From Mesaphorura yosii (Eukaryota; Arthropoda; Collembola; Poduromorpha; Tullbergiidae), in contig WIXG01000646.1 in the NCBI GenBank assembly GCA_009869945.1, positions 1-29,247 on the forward strand: a stretch of DNA of 29,247 nt. Reading direction: 5' to 3'. The notes beneath the pieces were generated by a model, which made no database searches, was not told the origin of the DNA, and worked only from the letters and a program-made list of their open reading frames with translations. Both the position numbers and the translations under genes were made by a program. Shown here one piece after another: positions 2,069-18,783 of this stretch. Each line of letters starts with the position of its first letter. The first letter of the stretch is position 1.

Positions 2069-2450
2069 AAACTGGCCGGGCTATCAATGTTCATTTTACT
2101 TTTGGTACGAGTGTATAACAGCAATCATGTAGGCTAGATCATTAAGATGACTGACGTTATCAGAGATTAATTTATAAGAAGCAGAGGGTATTTTCACTGC
2201 ATGGATTCCAAACTAACTTCCATTACTTGAGTGACTCGGGAACCTCAGCCACAACTTTGCTTGCACTTAAGCGGTACATATTCCGAGCTCTATTGTATTG
2301 GGAAATACAAAACTTTTATTTCTACGAAAGCAAAGCACGAAGTACACATCCGCAGATTACATGCAAAGACGACTCTGTGGAATTAATGCTGAACCTTCAC
2401 ATTCTCATTGCCAGACAACCAGCCAATCGATCCGGTTCAAATTTAAGAAA

Positions 2451-3901
2451 ATGGCGCCTAGCAAACTATCTGGTCGTGGTTACCCGTTTTTCATATCGCT
2501 ATTAGAGAACGGTCTGTTCAACTTTGTAATGTTCATCGGACTCGTTTGCGGGTGCTGTCCAGCTCTGCTAATCCCATCATCGTCGACTCGTTTTATCAAC
2601 TCTGTTCCAGACAGGCCTTATAAGAACTACATTGGGTTCTTATATTGCGTAGCGGCATGGATCTTTATGTCTTTATCTCCAGTTGACTTTATCATTGCTT
2701 ACGGCGATGGCATCACGACCGGATCCACTTCTTCGATTCTACTCACATTTTTAACCGAATATATGATCACTTTGGTCGATCTGGTCAGGCGGTCGATCTT
2801 TCTATTCAAATATACCGAGCTGGTACTTGTTTTACGTTATATACATGAAGAGAGTGTAAGACATAAGATTCAGACATCTGGAACGCACTCGATTCTGTAT
2901 CTCACATGCACAACTGTACTTTTAGCCACTGTCCGAGTGGTCCTGGAATTCGTCACGGTCGCCATAAGGACAGAAGAGCCTCAATCGGCGATTTATCCAC
3001 CACAAGTCGACGTGATAGCATGGTACACGTGGCTCGCCTTTCTATACGGGTCCAACATTGTCTCAAAAATCCTTGTACACCTTGTAGGACATTACCTCAT
3101 CAGGCAATACCAATTACAGTGTTCAGAATTCCAAGACTTTTATGAATCTCGAGTTGTCGCCACGGTCGATCAACTCGCCGACTTCCGGCTTAAATTCGAG
3201 CGATTAGAGTCAGGTTTCGCATTGTACGGCGACGGAGTTGGGTTCTTACTCGGTATTGCAATAATTCAATGTATTTCAACATTCTTCTCCCATATTTTCA
3301 CCACTGTAGATTTATTAAGGAAAAGTGACTTCAGTGCAATCAATTTTAGCATTAAGTTGCTAATTTTTCTGGAAGAAGTTCTAAATTTGGTGCAAATTGG
3401 ACATATCGGTCAATACATGAAGGATGAGGTATTTTTTGATAAAAATAAGTTCTAAAATATCTTAAACCGGTTCTCTCCCGCCTGATTTTTGAGATGGAGG
3501 TCACAAAAAGGAAAATGAAGTGCATGATTGCCCAAGACGAAATATTGCAAAATCGGGACACATTCTTGAGGCACGACAAAGCTTCTATCGAGGTAAACGT
3601 GTACAAAATTTAAAGCTGAGCAACTCACATGCACAAATTACAGTTATTTGCGCAGAGAAATTCGATTGCCAATTTGATTGTGACTTGGAAATGGCATTTG
3701 ACAGCCAAAGACATGTGCCCTGTTGACTACGGAATCTTTCCAAGCGTAAGTTACTTGCGATCTAAATTTTGGAGACGGCGTACCAAACTTTTACTTGACT
3801 TTACATATTTTTAGGTCGTGAACAATACGCTCACGTTCTTAATGTTTGTATTCACACTCAAATTGAGCGAAGCACCTGTGCAGCAGCTTCCGCGCAAGTA
3901 G
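2451..3901 (+). CDS. gustatory-receptor-like seven-transmembrane chemoreceptor A
   Basis: Four exons, all in phase 0: 2451-3428, 3494-3592, 3656-3745, 3815-3901; 417 residues. The start ATG was chosen because the same KMA- start context occurs in the relatives at 4439 and 5079; upstream codons in the open frame are not shared. The protein has about seven hydrophobic segments, beginning FNFVMFIGLVCGCCPALL. The gene layout, one long exon and three short phase-0 C-terminal exons, and the C-terminal pattern (LTAKDMC.VDYG then a last helix TLTFLMFVFTLKL) resemble the arthropod gustatory receptor family, where the last helix carries TYxxxxxQF. The TYxxxxxQF itself is not exact. Such receptors are ligand-gated cation channels of sensory neurons. 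The acceptor before exon 2 is TTTTGAG, unusual but required by alignment with gene B. Confidence 0.65.
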
Positions 3902-5049: not shown

Positions 5050-5078
5050 AACCGTTCACATGCATCACGTAAGTTAAA

Positions 5079-6442
5079 ATGGCTTCACCGAATAAATTTT
5101 CTCGGTTCATTTCTTCTTGGTGTGAAAATTGGCTTTTAAAGTACGTAAAGGTCATCGGTCTTGTTTGTGGATGCATACCAGCGGCGGCGTCTGCACCCGA
5201 GAGTTACTACGCCGTCAGCTTTCTATATTGCCTCCTGCTGTGGTTCTTCAACGTTGCCGGCTCCGTAGACTTTTTAGCAGCCTACTACAAAAAATTTACA
5301 GCCGGGTCACCTTCATCCGTCTTGACCACGTTTGTCAGCGAATTTACGACCATTACATTCGATTTGGGGGTACGATTCATTTTTCTTTGCAAATCGGCCA
5401 AGGTGGTTCTCATTTTTCGCCATTCGGACGAGGAAGTCAGCACAGATCATGTAATTCTGTACCTCACATGCGTAAATGTGTTCCTAGCAAGTGCCCGATT
5501 GGTGTTTGAGTTGATTGAGACTGCGAACGAAATTGAAAGCATCAAGTCAGCTTTCTACCCGACCCAACTCGTCATCACGTATTGGTTCGTTTGGTATGTT
5601 CTTGCTTACGCGTCCAATATTGCATCCAAAGCATCGGTTCATCTCATCGGCAATCGTCTGATGCGCAAATATCAGACCATCTGCAACGAATTTCAGAGAG
5701 CTTATCAAGAATCGATCGACGACAACGCTCAGCTGTACGAGTTCAAAATGAAACTGCAACAACTGGAGGATAGATTTGCATTGTACGGCGACGTGGTCGG
5801 GTTTCTGGTCGCCTTCACCATCATGCAATGCATCGCCACATTCTTTTCAGTCATTTTCACCGCAGTACATCTACTGGATGAGAAGACATTGAATTCGGTC
5901 ACCTTCTCCATCGAAGTACTCAATCTAGCAGAGCAGATGCTGAATTTGGTCCAGCTTGCATACATGGGGCAGTATATGAAGAATGAGGTGAGGTAAAGTT
6001 TCCCAAAATTTTGAGCCTGTATCTTTTTGTATGCATTTGGATTGCAGATGGATTCCATGAAAAGGAAATTTCAGAAAATGATAGGGCAAGATGGCAGTGA
6101 AAAGCAAACCGGAGGATCATTGCTGATAAGGCATAGTCAAGATTCGATATCAGTAAGCTCCAAGTTTAGTTTGAATTGTATTACTAGAATTGTGACTGGA
6201 ATTTTTCATTTGCCCTGCAGAAAAATTCGGTGGGCAATTTGGTCGTGACGTGGAACTGGAATTTAACAGCGAAAGACATGTGCACTGTTGACTATGGACT
6301 CTATCCGACTGTAAGTACTCCAAAATCCTTGGTAATGTTTCTTAAAATCTTACCACCTCCTAACCGACAATTGCAGGTCGCAGCAACGACCCTCTCATTC
6401 TTGATGTTTGTTTTCGCTCTCAAACTGTCTGAGCCACGATGA
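5079..6442 (+). CDS. gustatory-receptor-like seven-transmembrane chemoreceptor B
   Basis: Four phase-0 exons: 5079-5987, 6048-6152, 6221-6310, 6377-6442; 389 residues. All borders are GT-AG with good acceptors (GATTGCAG, CCCTGCAG, ATTGCAG). It is the closest relative of receptor A: FIGLVCGCCPA matches VIGLVCGCIPA, the segment ALYGD.VGFL is shared, and the last exons carry NWNLTAKDMCTVDYGLYP followed by a final helix ending ALKLSEPR. About seven hydrophobic helices are present, with the long hydrophilic loop before the last exons expected for this family (inverted topology, cytosolic N-terminus). The shared intron positions show that A, B and the pseudogene between them arose by tandem duplication. 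The ligand is not predictable. Another insect-type 7-helix chemoreceptor lineage is the main alternative. Confidence 0.65.
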
Positions 6443-8336: not shown

Positions 8337-11144
8337 ATGGGACCAAGGTCAAGATTTATTTTCTGGTTCAAGGTGACATTCCGGCTGACCATTGCCGTAT
8401 TGGGGATGCTGATCCACCGAAGTCGCTCCCAGTTCAATGAATTTGATAGCAAGTGCACTCAATGTAGTGACAAGGAATTTTTGTGATGTTTGACCTGTGC
8501 TTTGCTCATAGATTGCAAAATCAGTGACCATGACGCGGGCGGATACCCTTGGTCAGTTGGCCTTCGAATTTCCTTCGAAAACGAGAACGACGCGTACTGG
8601 CCTGCGATTATCATTGGACCACACACGTTGATAGCGGATGGACGCACCTTTCGAGCTCCAAACCGGAAACTCAGGTTCCTATCTCCAAGCAATTACTCGA
8701 TTAGTCTCACGAATACCCCAGTTGCGGATGGGTACAGTGACATCGAGGTAAGTTGCTTCCAAATTAATTGGAATACTCTTCATGGTAAATCTCTAATTTT
8801 GTGGACATCAGATCTCGTACATCCGCCCACATCCCAAAATTGGTGTAAACACTGAATATTGGATGGTGGCAGAACATGACTTTGCACTGATCCGCACTCG
8901 AAATCCGATCAACTTCACTCACACAATCCGACCACTTTGTCTGCCCAATTGGGACGAAGATGACTGGAAATCGTGTCAAGATCGAAAAGTATCGTACATC
9001 CAAGATGGTAATTACCTGATAATCATGGGGTGGACGTGCAAATACTACTATTCCCTGCCCGGTGGCGTGAATGGGTCTGCTGGCTTTGATTTCCTGATCC
9101 GTTCTTACCAAGACTGCTACGGCGTATGGCGATAGCAGCCGGAGTACATGATGTACGAAGGAGTCAACTACATCAATCAGGTATGCGGAAGACCAAAAGT
9201 GCGGAGATTCAACATGTCATCTGACGACCTTGACCCAGGATTCTGTGGAGAAAAAGGATACTACGCGACTGGCAAAGTGGGTACCGGCGATGAATGGAGT
9301 CTGCTTTGCAAATTCAATGGATTTGGGCAAGAAGTGTTTGCGGGACCAACGGGATACGTTTCTTTGCTGACTCCGTCCATTGTGGAATGGATTCGGAACG
9401 CTACGACTTGTGATCCAAGGCAGTATGCCTGCAACGACGGCCAGTGCATTCCGCTGGCCCAACGCTGTGACCAGGTGCAAGACTGCGCGGATAGATCGGA
9501 TGAAGACCCTGTATACTGTCGGGCCCTGAACCACTGCGGAACAAATCAGTTCGAGTGTGATGTGTACGGGGAGTGCAAGCCAGCCGTGGATGAAAACGGA
9601 AAAGTGCGAGCAAATTGTGATGGTGTACGAGATTGCCCGAATGGTGAGGATGAATACCCAAGCATGTGTTTGCAGCCGGATCCATCTTGGTTCAGCAGAA
9701 ATTGGGGCTATGTCATCAGCTCTGCTGTGGCGGTCATAATTGTCATCCTACTCGTGGTAGAGCTCGTAGCAAGGCAGACAATAATCGTGAGATGACTACC
9801 ATAGTCCAAGTAAATAATTTTTGATTATGAATAATCGCTGACTTTTCATTTGCAGAGACGACGTCTTTACCTGACTGATGATGAAATACAAGAATTTCTG
9901 CAAGGAGTTGATAACGAAATTAGTGAGGTTCCACCAGAGGGTGCAAACCGAGGATAAATTCAGCCCTCCTCAATGCAGATGCCATATATTTACGTCATCA
10001 AGAAAGACAGGTTCAAATGGGGACCATTAATTGGTAAAGGCGCCTCTGGCGATGTTTATGAAGGGCACGTCGATGGGCGGCAGGTTGCCATCAAAGTTCT
10101 TAAGAAGGGAACCGTCGAAAAGGAGATTTTCAAGACATTTTTAATTGAACTCAAAAAACTGGCATTCGTCAATTTTATCAAGGGTGGGCACGGTAATGTG
10201 ATAAACTTGGTTGGCGCACACATCGAGGAAATTCGCAATCGTATGTCCATCTGACCCGTTTTCTCGTAATTTGATTCTGAACTGGAGCTTCTATCCCTAG
10301 TTGAGTTGCATATTGCACTCGAGTTCTGTGAAAATGAGAGCGTCATCGACTATCTCAAGAAGCACTCACATGAATTTAAAACGAATGCTAATGCTGATAC
10401 GTACTCAATGGCTTCCGTGGACGGCGGGCTTGTACTGCAAGCCTCACAGCAGCGGTACATTAAATTCGATTCCATGGAGCGTATAAATAAAAGCAGCCGC
10501 GCGACAGAAGACAGCGGCAGGCCCTCCAGTTCGACTGATGGAGCTTCAACTTTTACTTGGAATTCGCTCCTTCACCAATGGCTCTGTAAAATAGCGGACG
10601 GTATGCGGTTCCTTTCCTCACATAATGTTGCTCACGGTGACCTGGCCGCCAGAAATGTTCTGTAAGACTCTAACCTCAACGTAAAAATTAGCGATTTCGG
10701 GCTGTCCCGTCAAGTGTATATTATAACAAGTCAGGAGCTAAAGTGGACAAGAACACGCAGTTGCCTTGGCCGTGGATGGCACCAGAGGTACTTGGAGCCA
10801 TGAGAATGTCTCCTGCGTCTGATGTATGGCCGTTTGGCATCTTGACTTGGGAACTTTACACTTTGGGTGGTGTGCCGTACGGAGGACTTGAATGGAGCCC
10901 CAACTTTGTGAATCAGCTCCAGTGTGGGTTGCGACTCCCAAAGCCAGAGCATGCGTCGAAAGAATTGTTAGTAATTGCGAGGAATTTTATGATGAAATTG
11001 AATTTATGCTCATTTCATTATTTCATTGACAGGATCCGCATAACAGAAAAGTGCTGGGCATTCCAACCCAAAGCACGCCCCGATTTCAACGGGTTGCATC
11101 AGAAATTAATGGCACTGTCGAATTTTGGCAACTCCGACCGTTGA
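8337..11144 (+). pseudogene. trypsin-like / LDLa / transmembrane / tyrosine-kinase receptor, broken
   Basis: Exons inferred: 8337-8463, 8512-8747, 8812-9786, 9856-10240, 10301-10966, 11033-11144. The order is signal peptide, chymotrypsin-fold domain (GGYPWSVGL near residue 55; EHDFALI, IRPLCLP; VEWI), two LDLa modules (about 321-358 and 363-407, with CDxxxDCxDxSDE), one helix (about 418-440), then a tyrosine kinase (GKGASGDV loop, VAIK, HGDLAARN, DFGLS, WMAPE, SDVWPFG). The protease is degenerate: no TAAHC, and GDSGG is replaced by GTGDEW, so His57 and Ser195 are lost while the Asp102 region remains. Lesions: TAG at 9133-9135, TAA at 10663-10665 inside the catalytic loop region, and an indel near 10720 (exon length off by one phase). 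A TAA at 9955 may be removed by a 51-nt intron (9928-9978). Ancestral role: a receptor kinase with a non-catalytic protease ectodomain. It now looks non-functional unless the assembly is wrong. Confidence 0.8.
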
Positions 11145-12449: not shown

Positions 12450-15348
12450 TTATATGTTAAGCTTAGTCAATGTTTCCTTGATCTGGCTTATTGTCGGTCG
12501 CTCTTTCGGATCCAAATGCCAACACTCCGTCAGCAGCTTGTAAGCTTCCTCCGTCGAAAACTCTGGCTTTGGATTCCTGAGCCCAGACTCCAGCTCCTGA
12601 ACAAAGGTCGGACTCCATAGTGTATTCGGGTACGGCGTCTGAGCAAGGCTGAACACTTCCCAGGCTGTGACCCCAAATGACCACACGTCGGACGCAGTCG
12701 AGAATCGCATGTCTTTGATGGACTCAAGAGCCATCCATCGCCAGGGCAACTGTCGCTCCTCGGATCGGACGTAGGCGGAATAGTCACTCAGTAGTGCGGC
12801 TAGCCCAAAGTCTGCAATCTTGACGATCAGATGTTCGTCGAGAAGCACGTTCCTAGCTGCCAGGTCGCCATGCACAACTCGCCTCTCTGCGAGGAACTCC
12901 ATCCCGGATGCAATCTGAGTCGTCCACTGAAGCAGTTGCCTTTTCCTCATCTCTGCCTCAGACGACGACGCGTCTACGAGTAGACGAATGGCGCGCAGAT
13001 ACCCTTCCAGATCCCGATTCACACACACTTCCAGTACGATGGAGACACAGTCCAGGTCAACCGTTACAGCACCCAACAGGCCCACAATATTCGTGTGTGG
13101 CCCAACATGAATGAGGATCTGAAGTTCTTTGAGGAGTCTGGTGATGGAGGCGCCACCTGTCACATGACGTTGGATCTTGCCTGGACCGCTCATTTTGGGC
13201 CGCTTCACCGCTACATGAAGAGGAGGTTCTGACGACCCTTGTTTGAACAGGAGACCCGGGTGAACAACACTGAATTGTCCGGTCCCAAACACCTGCCCGT
13301 TTGGGTCCAGTCGCACACTGTTTGCGTCCAACTCGTACTGACCAGCGTCGTAGGGCGTGGTGAGGGCGAGGTAGTTTCCACTCGGGCGTTGAGGATTCCC
13401 CACTCCGCCTCTACACTCCAGGTCGACTGAGCACCAGCTCAACGGCAGCACACCCGCGTGAAACTGGTGGAGAATGCTCTGGAGTGAGAGTGCGGTTGAG
13501 GAGAGGCGGCTGGCTTTTCCTCCCGAAGTGGCGGGGTCAATGACGAGGGCGTGACCCGATCGACGACTTCGCCTCCTCCACCAAACGAGTCCAAGGGTGC
13601 ATAAGATGAAAAGTGCAAGGGAGCCAAGGGTGAGTGAGACGGAAAGAAGCCAGGAAGGTGTCGCCCCTTCACTTTCTTCATCGCGTTCGGTTACTGTCGT
13701 TGTTGAAGGTGACGACGAGGCGATGCAGCTCAGTCCTTCACGCACGCACATCACCGCCCCGAGTGCGTCTAGACGACCAGCTCCAAAGTGAAAGTTTGGA
13801 AACTGAGAGTCTGGGACTCCACCACAACTCGACCCCGCCTCCTTCAGCTCCTTTGAGGCAGTGACCCGAAGGACTTGCTTCACCTCCTCGTAACTACGAG
13901 TCATTGAAAGATGCCGTGTGTAATTATTATTACAGGAGTAAAATTGAAATCCAAAAATTGTGCCATTAACTTTATATTAATTATAAAGGCTAGGGCGGGT
14001 CCATGGGTGAAACGCGGAGATTGCGGACCAATTGTTAAGCTTACGTGAGTTGAGGTGCTTCGCTGAGCATGAGTGCAACAACTCCTACCACATGCGCGGC
14101 CGCGATTGTCGGAGCTTCGGAAGGTGGCCAGGATCCGTAACAATCGTCCGCACTGTGTGTGGGGGCAAGGACGTTCACGCCAGGTGCCGTGAGGTCCGGT
14201 TTGAGGGGTGCGCCAGGTCTTGGGCTGGGTCCGACTCCCGAGTAGCTGGCGAGTCTGTCCTCCTCGTCCGTAGCACCCACGCTTATCGCCCAGTCCGACC
14301 ATCCCGTGTACGTGATTGAGGAGCAGGCAGGCGGCGCCTCCTCCGGTTCTCCGACTGCTATGGAACTGTGTGTGACGTGAATGATGCCTCCTTCACGCCA
14401 GGCACGGAACAGGTTCTCGTAGGAGGGGATATTGGCCGTGTTGCTCACCAGGAAGGAGGTTATCACAACATTAGGTGCTCGTTCTGGGTCTGGGTCACTT
14501 TTGTCTAGCCTCCATGGAGTCAATATAAACTGCCCACACATGGCAATGGAGGTGAGGGTCCCTGACCCATTGTTGTTGAAGGCCTTGCACGTCAACCATT
14601 GCGCTCCCGGAGCCACTCCAACTCTACCACCGCCAAGAGACACTCCAAGCTCCTGAGTGCCCATACCAAAGTCGTCAAAGGGTTGCGGGGACTGAAAGAA
14701 GGTGAGTGCGTTGTACCAAGAGTGACCATCGTCTCTGTACGAGCGGCTCAGGGCCTCATGTGTGACACGCACTCCAGTGCTCAGGCTTCCTATGACAACC
14801 CCTGACCCATTCACACCAGCTGCCCACACTTCCTCCACACCAATCAGCCTCAGATTGTAATCAATGTACGACTTCGAGCTCTGCATCACTGCCGCATGGT
14901 TCGAACTGCCTTTTGCTCGTGTAGCAGGAAGATGAATCGGCTCATCAACCTCAACACGAACCACGTCGGCTCTGTCACGCAAAATGTCAAGTATTTTTGA
15001 AGGAGCATTTCGGATGTGGATTTGGTTGGTGATCCAGAAACTTGTGATTTCGAGGGCAGGCTCCCATCCTTTCAGAACCTTCAGCAATGAGGCTTGTGAA
15101 TCTTCAGCGTTCCGGAGGAGAGCGAAGTGGAGGGCAGCCCGTCGGTCTGCAATGTTTGTAAACGTGCCGGCATTGGCGGCTGACGAAATATGGTTAAGGG
15201 GTGTGTTGTTGCCCACCCGCATCGAGATGAGGATGCTGGAGGAGGCGGTGGAGGCCTGGATTCTGGGGTCAATCCAGGGAGCTCCAACCACAGAGATGCT
15301 GAATAAAGCCAAGAGGAAGAGGCGGAACACAAGCGCCATTATTGCCAT
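12450..15348 (-). CDS. subtilase-like pseudoprotease receptor tyrosine kinase, copy 1
   Basis: Two exons, 15348-14045 and 13893-12450 (phase 2, GTAAGC/CGTAG), encode 915 residues. The start is the ATG at 15348; the open frame begins earlier but at a TTG. Order: signal peptide, I9-like propeptide (about 65-135), S8 subtilisin-like domain (about 165-470), one helix (about 514-539), then a kinase. All catalytic positions of the S8 domain are changed: DTG reads STG (S190), GHGT reads GMGT (M229), the oxyanion Asn is replaced (about I330) and GTSMA reads APTIA (T414). It should be proteolytically dead. The kinase looks intact: GTGQFSVV loop, VAVK (K665), Glu in LLKELQIL (about 691), HGDLAARN (D778, N783), DFG (D796) and LPWRWM typical of tyrosine kinases. 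It should sit in the plasma membrane with the kinase in the cytosol. The head-to-head neighbour is its paralogue. Confidence 0.9.
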
Positions 15349-15814
15349 TGAGTGGATCAAACAGAGACTTTAGCGCACACTGCACTAATGTACTCTTAAT
15401 ATGAACGTAGTAGTATTGAGTATGAAATTGAGTCGAATCTGGGACAAATTGCAACTGCATTTCAACGCAACACAAATTTAGGAACTTAACAAAGTGAACA
15501 AGCAGTCAACTGAGTGTTTTTAAACTCCCTGAATGTAACATTGAGAGGAAGGTCCAGTAGTCGTCAGTCATACTACATAGAGAAGATAAGAGATCCAGTT
15601 GAACAAGGAGTACAATTCAGTCCAATTCAACAACAACTTGCTTATCGTCGTCGCGGTACTCAAGTGCCATGTCCTTCCCTGGAATCCTACGTGCAAAAAT
15701 GCAGAATGCGAACAAGTGATTAGAAAATTGTCAACTTGGCAACTGCAGATACGAATTGAATGATTTCATCCATTTCAACATGTCCATAGATTTTAGTATT
15801 CAGATCAGTTCGTT
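15349..15814. promoter_or_regulatory. shared upstream region of two divergent receptor-kinase genes
   Basis: The two start codons are 466 nt apart and point away from each other, so both promoters must lie here or in undetected upstream exons. On the plus side GATCAGTTCGTT at 15804-15815 is an excellent arthropod initiator but would leave a leader of only about 8 nt; alternatively TTTTAGTATTCAG just before it is a splice acceptor of a non-coding first exon. The arrangement suggests co-expression of the pair. Confidence 0.45.
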
Positions 15815-18783
15815 ATGATTCTGTTATTGTTATTGCTAGAGTTTACAGCCCTTGCAATCACGTGTACTTCTGGTGCATTCATCGAGCCTGAATTAGAAAG
15901 ATTGGTAAGGGATGAGCAGCAGAGTTACAGCCTCCGCCGCCCCATCGAGCTACTCATCACGATGAGGGAAGGGACGAGAAAAGTCCTGACGGAGTTTCCT
16001 GAAGCGGACATACCAAGGAGCTCCGTACAAATGGGAAACCACCGCACTGCACTCCGCCACGCCCTCTTGCTGAATGCCCAGGCTTCACAGGCCTCACTCA
16101 TCGCCGCTTTGACGGACATGTTTCAGGAATCCGGCACCGGCACTCAACTGACAAGTTTCTGGATCACGAATCAACTTCTCGTTCGGAACATAACCGCGAA
16201 CGTCATTGGTCTCCTGAATCTGCTCCGTGACCATGACGAGGTGGCACGAGTGCAGCAAAATGCGCGATTCTCTATTCACAGTCACAGCCACAAACAGCAG
16301 CTCTGGCCAGAGTCGACTCTGAATTGCAAGAGTCAGAATGGAGGTCGTCTGGAGCCAGGCTACAACCTCCAGCTCCTCCGGGTTCCCGAACTCTGGGCGA
16401 AGGGTGTGAACGGAACCGGTGTCGTCGTCGGGATAATCGACACTGGTGTCCGACACACTCACTCAGCTCTCCGGGACAGCTACAAGGGAGACAAGTACTC
16501 GTGGCGCGACGGAGTGACCTTTGCTAGCAACCCGTCGGATGACCTGGGGCACGGGACGATGAGCATGGGACTTCTGGTTGGAGGGGAAGGTGTTGGAGTG
16601 GCTCCAGGAGCCAAGTGGATAGCCTGTAAAGCAGTGGATGCGAGTGAGATGACGTGGGACGCATTTATTCGCTGCGGTCAGTTTATGTTATGTCCGACGA
16701 CACCGGACGGTTTAGAGGAAGACTGTAGTCAGGCACCGAGTATCGTCAGTGGTGGCCTCAATGCTCCTCCAGGCTTTGATGGCGACGGCTTGCTTGACAG
16801 CATTGCCAAAGCTTTGAGTGCTGCCGGCATTCTTGGCGTCTCGTCCGCAGGCGCCCACGGTGAGGTAGAGGAGGGATGCTCTTCAGTCTTGTTCCCTGCA
16901 CACTACCCCACGGTCCTGGCCGTTGGAGCGACGGATGAAGAGGACCGACTATGGAGGCTGAGTGGTCAAGGTCCGCCTGCCTCCGATCCTCATTTAATTA
17001 AACCTGAGGTCACAGCGCCTGGAGTGAACGTTATCTCGACCGCCTTCGACTCGGACGACTGCTACTCCGTGGGTTCAGGGACCGACAGAGCTGGGCCACA
17101 GGTGGCGGGAGTGGTGGCGTTGCTCCTGAGTCACGCTCCATGGCTGACACCAGCACAGGTTCAGACTTTGCTCCAGAATACGGCCGCGAGAAACCTTGGA
17201 TTCGAGGGTCGAACCTGTGCTGACCTCCCAGACTCTGAGTTTCCAAATTTCCAGTTTGGGTACGGACGAGTCGACGCTTATGCTGCGTACAAGTGTATAA
17301 ACGACCCGGTATGTTTGAAGGAGTCGGGCATAACTCCAGAACCGTCGTCAACAATAACCCAAGTCACAAGTACAGAGATCGGCGACACTGACACAGAGAC
17401 CAACATGGTAATCCAACAGAATTATCACATCACAACTTTAAATTTTAAACTTGCGTCTTGACTCCCGTAATTTTACAGACAGTTTGGCTGTGGGTTGGAG
17501 TTGTGGCTGGAGGAGTAATTGTGCTCCTCCTGCTCGCCTCCCCAATGGCCTTCGTGTTTGTGTACTGCAAAAGGAAATCAAACACTAATTCGAAATTTAA
17601 AGAAGATGAAGCTACTCCTATGGAACACATTCTCCGCCAGTTCCAGGCTGGTGTGTGGCCTCAGCTTGTTGCCCTTCAACAATTGCGTAATCATCACGAT
17701 GACAACCAATCAGAATCGAGAGTTGAGATTGCCAACTATGTCGCCTTTAGTCAACCATACGATTTCCAACGCTATGACATTCAAACGTCGGACCTCCAAA
17801 TTGAGACGAGTCATGTGCTTGGAGCGGGTGAATTCGGGATCGTGTACGCAGGCGTTCTCACAAAGCGTATAAACGAAGAAAAGCGCGAAACTCAGGTCGG
17901 AGTAAAAAAACTGAGGCCTGGGCACGATGTGGAGGCTGTGTCCTCGTTTCTGAAAGAGTTACAGATCATGGCTTATGTTGGAGAACACGTGAACATTGTC
18001 CAGCTGCTGGGTGCGTGCACACAATCAAAACACGCCAACGTGGATGAACTTTGCATGGTCCTCAGTCTCTGTGTACATGGAAACCTTGAGTCGTACCTTC
18101 GAAACAATCGGGCTGCATTTGTAGGCTCGGAGCAGAAGAAACCGAGACTGGACTTCGGATCCTCGACCTCGAATGCTCATTACGTCTCATTTTTCCCCTC
18201 CGACTTTCCTGAAGCGACTTGGTCATTTTGTACGGAAGATTTGGTTCGTTGGACACTCCAAATAGCGTCTGGTATGGAATACTTGGCCCAGAAGCGTGTG
18301 ATTCACGGTGACCTCGCGGCTCGGAACGTGCTTCTCGATGAGGCCCGCATGGTTAAGCTTTCTGACTTTGGGCTTGCGAGTCGACTGTACGAGTATACGT
18401 ACAGGAAACCTTTCGACGCACACGCATCGGACTCGGAGCAGCGCCCTCTGCCGTGGCGGTGGATGTCACTTGAGTCACTCAGGGAGTTGAAGTTCTCCAC
18501 GGCCTCCGACGTCTGGGCGTTTGGGATCACAGCCTGGGAAGTGTTCAGCCTCGCAGAGGTTCCCTACCCGGGTCTCGTGTATGGTCACCGTTTCCTTCAA
18601 CTCCTTGGACAAGGGTACAGAAACACAAGGCCAAAGTACGGCCCGGATGACGTGTATGCGATCATGAGACTCTGCTGGGCTTCGAAACCGAGTCAGCGAC
18701 CAAATATGGCGGAGATTAAGGAGATGCTGACTCATATTCTCGAAGTCGTCCTGTCCAAAGCAAACTCAACATTAGATAGCTGA
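15815..18783 (+). CDS. subtilase-like pseudoprotease receptor tyrosine kinase, copy 2
   Basis: Two phase-0 exons, 15815-17407 and 17479-18783, encode 965 residues. Order: signal peptide (MILLLLLLEFTALAI), I9-like propeptide (about 75-152), S8 domain of the bacillopeptidase-F-like type (about 182-495; GVNGTGVVVGIIDTG, DDLGHGT, GVGVAPGAKWIACKA), acidic Ser/Thr linker, helix (about 533-560), kinase (about 640-950). In the protease Asp (D209) and His (H246) remain, but the oxyanion Asn is Ala (A347) and the nucleophile motif GTSMA reads GTDRA (Ser to Asp, D424), so it should not cleave. The kinase keeps GAGEFGIV, Lys (VGVK, about 674), Glu (FLKELQI, about 691), HGDLAARN (D809, N814), DFG (D827) and LPWRWM; an insert of about 60 residues separates its hinge from the alphaE helix, as in split-kinase RTKs. 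Intron position differs from copy 1. Ligand unknown. Confidence 0.92.

Follow-up and report, generated by a model that had tools for sequence, protein, structure and literature searches.

A tyrosine kinase receptor family with a putative pseudoprotease (S8) ectodomain in the springtail Mesaphorura yosii

Receptor tyrosine kinases (RTKs) of the PDGFR/VEGFR type, to which insect PVR belongs, carry an immunoglobulin (Ig) ectodomain, a single helix and a kinase with the HRD motif. The S8 subtilases, such as subtilisin and Tk-subtilisin, have a prodomain and the S8 fold, and they keep their catalytic residues. PCSK9 is an S8-fold protein that acts by binding, with its prodomain left in place. It is secreted, keeps the triad, cuts itself once and has no kinase. 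Dead enzymes are common. The clip-domain serine protease homologues of arthropods are dead proteases in extracellular signalling, secreted, of the S1 fold and without a kinase. In plants, integrated decoys use an enzyme-like part as a sensor. To our knowledge, a dead enzyme as the sensing part of an RTK has not been described. Likewise, the portions consulted of the open PubMed Central literature (including PMC8662651 and PMC5490193) gave no description of an S8 or trypsin-like RTK.

Here we analyse two head-to-head genes on contig WIXG01000646.1 of Mesaphorura yosii (labelled C646). The whole contig of 29,247 nucleotides is the window, and coordinates are window positions. Both genes encode an S8 domain followed by a tyrosine kinase. 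They resemble PDGFR/VEGFR-type RTKs in the single helix and in the alignment of the copy 2 kinase to PDGFRA, but have S8 and HGD in place of Ig and HRD. With the subtilases they share the prodomain and the S8 fold; unlike them, they have lost catalytic residues and are fused to a helix and a tyrosine kinase. The likeness to PCSK9 would be an S8 fold working by binding with a retained prodomain, here predicted. We consider it likely, from the alignments and a predicted structure, that these genes belong to an RTK family, so far of this genome only, in which the pro-subtilisin (S8) fold serves as ectodomain and is reused as a binding receptor. A binding receptor appears to be the most economical reading.

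Gene pair and family members

Copy 1 (type B) lies on the minus strand at 12450..15348, with exon 1 at 14045-15348, a phase 2 intron at 13894-14044 and exon 2 at 12450-13893. Copy 2 (type A) lies on the plus strand at 15815..18783, with exon 1 at 15815-17407, the intron at 17408-17478 and exon 2 at 17479-18783. The gap between their start codons is 466 bases (15349..15814). The original prediction placed signal peptide, S8 domain, helix and kinase in one continuous frame. This holds for both copies: removing one GT-AG intron from each gene (151 bases in copy 1, 71 in copy 2) leaves products without stops, 915 and 965 residues long as originally predicted, and an in-frame stop codon stands shortly upstream of each signal peptide. 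The signal peptide and the single membrane helix were read only from hydropathy and the reading frame.

In copy 1, the profile search places the S8 domain at 13734..14808, where it is split by the intron. The helix (residues 520-538) lies at 13584..13640 and the kinase domain at 12468..13295. In copy 2, the I9-like prodomain (residues 42-153, from the predicted fold) lies at 15938..16273, the S8 domain at 16412..17266, the helix (residues 533-551) at 17482..17538 and the kinase domain at 17803..18729; here the intron falls between S8 and the helix. Both kinase domains were delimited by the genome kinase search and Pfam. In the Pfam search of the products, copies 1 and 2 match Peptidase_S8 (E 6e-22 and 2e-35) and PK_Tyr_Ser-Thr (E 3e-68 and 1e-77). 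The I9-like propeptide had also been proposed. Its Pfam model, Inhibitor_I9, was not significant, but the predicted fold of copy 2 matches pro-subtilisins.

The genome search (93 Mb, 1127 contigs) gave 72 S8 matches and at least 159 tyrosine kinase matches. The architecture recurs in further genes, all within this one genome. S8 and kinase stand together on C646 (twice), C981 minus, C789 and C793. The C981 plus gene is cut off by the contig end after S8, the helix and the same juxtamembrane region; C527 has S8, the helix and the start of the kinase. The family counts seven genes on these five contigs. About 15 further contigs with S8 matches have no kinase match near S8, among the kinase matches listed.

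Neighbouring protease and kinase genes could be expressed separately, and the architecture would then be an artefact of gene reading. Each window copy does have an intron, that of copy 2 between S8 and the helix. However, looking in the DNA for such separate genes, we found in C789 a single frame of 858 residues through S8, helix and kinase, uninterrupted by any stop or intron from one domain to the next. The introns of copy 1 and C981 minus fall inside S8, and the last part of S8 runs on in one frame with the helix and the kinase. The same order also recurs in further genes. We give this explanation almost no credit.

Two protein searches, each scoring about 8,000 candidates, showed no protein with both S8 and a kinase among the best 120 of 235 and 120 of 1889 matches; this absence is telling for close relatives and not absolute. 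A protein search with a 501-residue protease found relatives of the wider S8 family in Orchesella and Allacma springtails, fungus gnats and oomycetes. Its length limit excludes most receptors of this size, and it has no bearing on the absence of S8 with a kinase.

Catalytic residues and fold of the S8 domain

Copy 2 keeps Asp209 and His246, with Ala at residue 347 for the oxyanion Asn and Asp at residue 424 for the nucleophile Ser, exactly as first described. For copy 1, the replacements of Asp by Ser and His by Met and the absence of Asn and Ser stood. The Thr proposed at the Ser place did not stand firmly: depending on the alignment, this place holds Thr or Pro, and the oxyanion-Asn place Ala or Glu. 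Across the triad and oxyanion Asn, 20 of 27 scored cells are lost and all seven kinase-linked S8 domains are affected. None of the scored residues is kept in copy 1 (0/4), C527 (0/4) and C793 (0/3). C981 minus has lost His alone and keeps Asp, Asn and Ser.

According to the alignment and the predicted structure, the cleft and active-site surroundings are altered in the S8 receptors and the fold is retained. The predicted structure of copy 2 superposes on pro-subtilisins over residues 42-497, with the subtilisin fold present. The p-values for catalytic cells (7e-9) and cleft cells (7e-7) are indicative only, since the cells share ancestry. Three of the seven kinase-linked domains went into the S8 profile, so that the most diverged members may have some columns wrongly placed. 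L033 (a 32-column S8 fragment) and L024 (a degraded second S8 copy without His and Ser) were left out of the S8 trees and counts; with L024 included, the count would read 19/24. Two of the 23 counted, L030 and L031, are nearly identical.

Weak or unusual catalysis is conceivable, because C981 minus misses His alone and copy 2 has Asp and His. The receptors would then remain proteolytic, through residual or substrate-assisted catalysis, with the kinase reporting each cut. Against this, the full catalytic set is absent in every member of the family, and three members keep no scored residue at all. We judge such catalysis improbable. The proposed reuse of the protease fold for binding seems better supported, by the kept fold and the selective loss of catalytic residues.

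Kinase domain and order of events

The kinases of both copies keep Lys, Glu, the catalytic Asp, Asn and DFG. The claim that kinase residues are kept does not extend to the Arg of HRD, which is Gly in both copies (HGD); this Arg is usual for RTKs and not strictly defining. The last Gly of the P-loop is Ser in copy 1. HGD was read in 12 of 13 related kinases of this genome, both copies included (e.g. L037-L043), and C1118 is the one with HRD. Among proteins of solved structure, the best sequence matches after an EGFR chain with a repeated kinase are PDGFRA, VEGFR, KIT and CSF1R. The alignment of the copy 2 kinase with PDGFRA spans residues 8-331 of 343.

The kinase tree was built from 21 database proteins and 14 kinases encoded in this genome; C527 covers 35% of its columns, and C653 was excluded. 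The S8 receptor kinases group with C665 and C1089 (99/98), within a larger group (100/100) of kinases from this genome. This tree held no PDGFR/VEGFR rows and no kinases of other springtails, and does not bear on lineage-specificity. The kinase of C665, the nearest of this genome outside the S8 family, follows an Ig-like stretch with a weak I-set match under the cut-off. Beside a broken kinase of the S8-receptor type, peptide-synthetase-like frames were seen by eye (L038 2390-3801, minus).

In a tree of 38 S8 domains with the catalytic columns removed, the seven kinase-linked domains form a clade (96/92) with two subclades. A quick tree with 62 rows agrees on the clade (SH-aLRT, an approximate likelihood-ratio test, 93). 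Its neighbours in the 38-domain tree are the kinase-less C980, C881 and C464 of the same genome, with C225 further out. C881 has an intact triad, and C980 has Gln for His and Ala for Ser. By eye, both end in a Thr-rich stalk and a glycosylphosphatidylinositol (GPI)-like tail. Copy 1, both C981 genes, C793, C527, C881 and C980 all have an intron donor 2 bases downstream of the same Leu codon.

On both C646 and C981, one A gene faces one B gene head to head, in the same order. For this reason, the A/B pair was probably copied as a unit. The S8 starts of C793 and C527 are nearly identical (L011, L039). C793 sits with type B by the S8 tree and with type A by the kinase tree; it is a mosaic or a mis-assembly. 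C789 shows two successive prodomain-like stretches (L010 1475-2008 and 1854-2150), perhaps a partial exon duplication.

The already-fused common ancestor of subclade A probably kept Ser and His, reversals aside, because C981 minus has Ser and copy 2 has His. Inactivation would therefore have followed fusion, and at least some of it would have happened in parallel. The Gln of C980 at the His place leaves the history of His loss ambiguous.

Binding receptor and a second family

Besides the conceivable weak catalysis, several observations weigh against the binding receptor. The family is known from genes alone, all in one assembly, and C793 and C527 are frame-broken. Whole-length Foldseek matches of the predicted structure to pro-forms have a root-mean-square deviation of 5-7. 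The S8 end branches are long (0.33-0.94 in the seven vs 0.27-0.52 in the four nearest kinase-less genes), copy 1 has also lost 21 of 72 other near-invariant S8 columns, and its codon contrast is weaker (S8 0.43-0.45/0.35-0.39/0.65-0.68). Relaxed constraint thus contributes. Conservation is lower in the prodomain, which shows little codon contrast and 25-34% identity among the four complete members. Activation may differ from that of usual RTKs, because HGD replaces HRD.

Decaying pseudogenes would match the two frame-broken genes, the long S8 branches and the stops in a third locus of the window (see below). However, the four complete genes read through 858-965 residues without a stop, and constraint is visible at the codon positions of both S8 and kinase. 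These are signs of purifying selection on the four genes, and we find decay hard to believe.

In the binding receptor that we favour, the dead S8 domain would bind an extracellular ligand in or around the old active-site cleft. Since the S8 domain cannot cut itself, the prodomain probably stays tethered across the cleft, by analogy with unprocessed Ser-to-Ala pro-subtilisins. Ligand binding, or prodomain removal by an active relative, would change receptor pairing, and the changed pairing would activate the kinase. It may be that the divergent A and B genes are expressed together and pair with each other. On the other hand, the prodomain could itself be the gate: another protease, perhaps an active S8 relative, would cut the tethered prodomain and turn the kinase on. 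A prodomain is present, predicted in the pro-subtilisin arrangement, and the intact relative with a Thr-rich stalk and GPI-like tail exists. The low conservation of the prodomain speaks against gating, which we consider possible but doubtful.

The third receptor-kinase locus of the window (8487..11144, plus) has a trypsin-like domain with a weak match (E 2e-5), LDLa repeats, a helix and a kinase. By eye, it contains in-frame stops and a frame shift. It appears to be a pseudogene from a second RTK family with a dead protease, comparable to the clip-domain homologues. The other entries of this family are L044, L045 and L046, and its kinases read HGD. C454 has the same domain order in a single open frame. 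C779 matches Pfam Trypsin (E 1e-6); C454 and C903 have no such match at E 0.01. The profile of these ectodomains has LDLa proteins as top matches, and also matches the protease part of TMPRSS2 (E 5e-8) and protein C (E 1e-6). It aligns with an intact trypsin of this genome over 88 columns (96.8% probability, vs 0.4% for S8). His57 and Ser195 are absent in all four members and Asp102 in two, with a loose alignment near Ser195 and crude joins for two members. The predicted structure of the C454 ectodomain is too poor to use (pLDDT, the model's confidence score, 33). At least 11 loci have LDLa no more than 1.5 kb before a same-strand kinase, among the matches listed; four of these were examined.

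A trypsin gene adjoining a kinase on C447 was set aside: the kinase is of Ser/Thr type by eye, and the two genes were regarded as unrelated. L040 (362-2662) and L041 (578-2851) each encode, in one open frame, an RTK with a Kelch-repeat ectodomain, and there are further Kelch matches near kinases in this genome. Elsewhere in the window, 2271-3455 and 5073-5996 (plus) appear by eye as two related multi-helix membrane proteins in tandem.

The dead protease might also be an immune decoy, binding microbial inhibitors aimed at the animal's active proteases and reporting them. The changed active-site surroundings on a kept fold would agree with this, as would a second, unrelated protease fold used the same way. 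Moreover, the part consulted of one source associates kinases without the HxD Arg with innate immune signalling (PMC8463890). Nevertheless, the very cleft residues that inhibitors of active subtilisins touch are altered, and we think a decoy unlikely. An enzyme-like sensor would be shared with plant integrated decoys, and a kinase without the HxD Arg is shared with non-RD immune receptor kinases; the kinases are unrelated, and we only infer an immune role here.

A broader and quite tentative proposal is that the HGD-type RTKs, an expanding set in this arthropod lineage, twice took proteases as ectodomains (S8 and S1), both losing catalysis. These pseudoprotease receptors might detect proteases, or inhibitors of proteases, either within the body or in the soil. 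If true, they would be an animal counterpart of integrated decoys. One genome seems to show the path, from an intact anchored protease through a dead anchored protease to dead proteases fused to a kinase. Catalytic losses differ between the copies, and the change from enzyme to receptor becomes directly testable. It seems that an old enzyme has become a sensor, its cutting residues lost and its shape kept.
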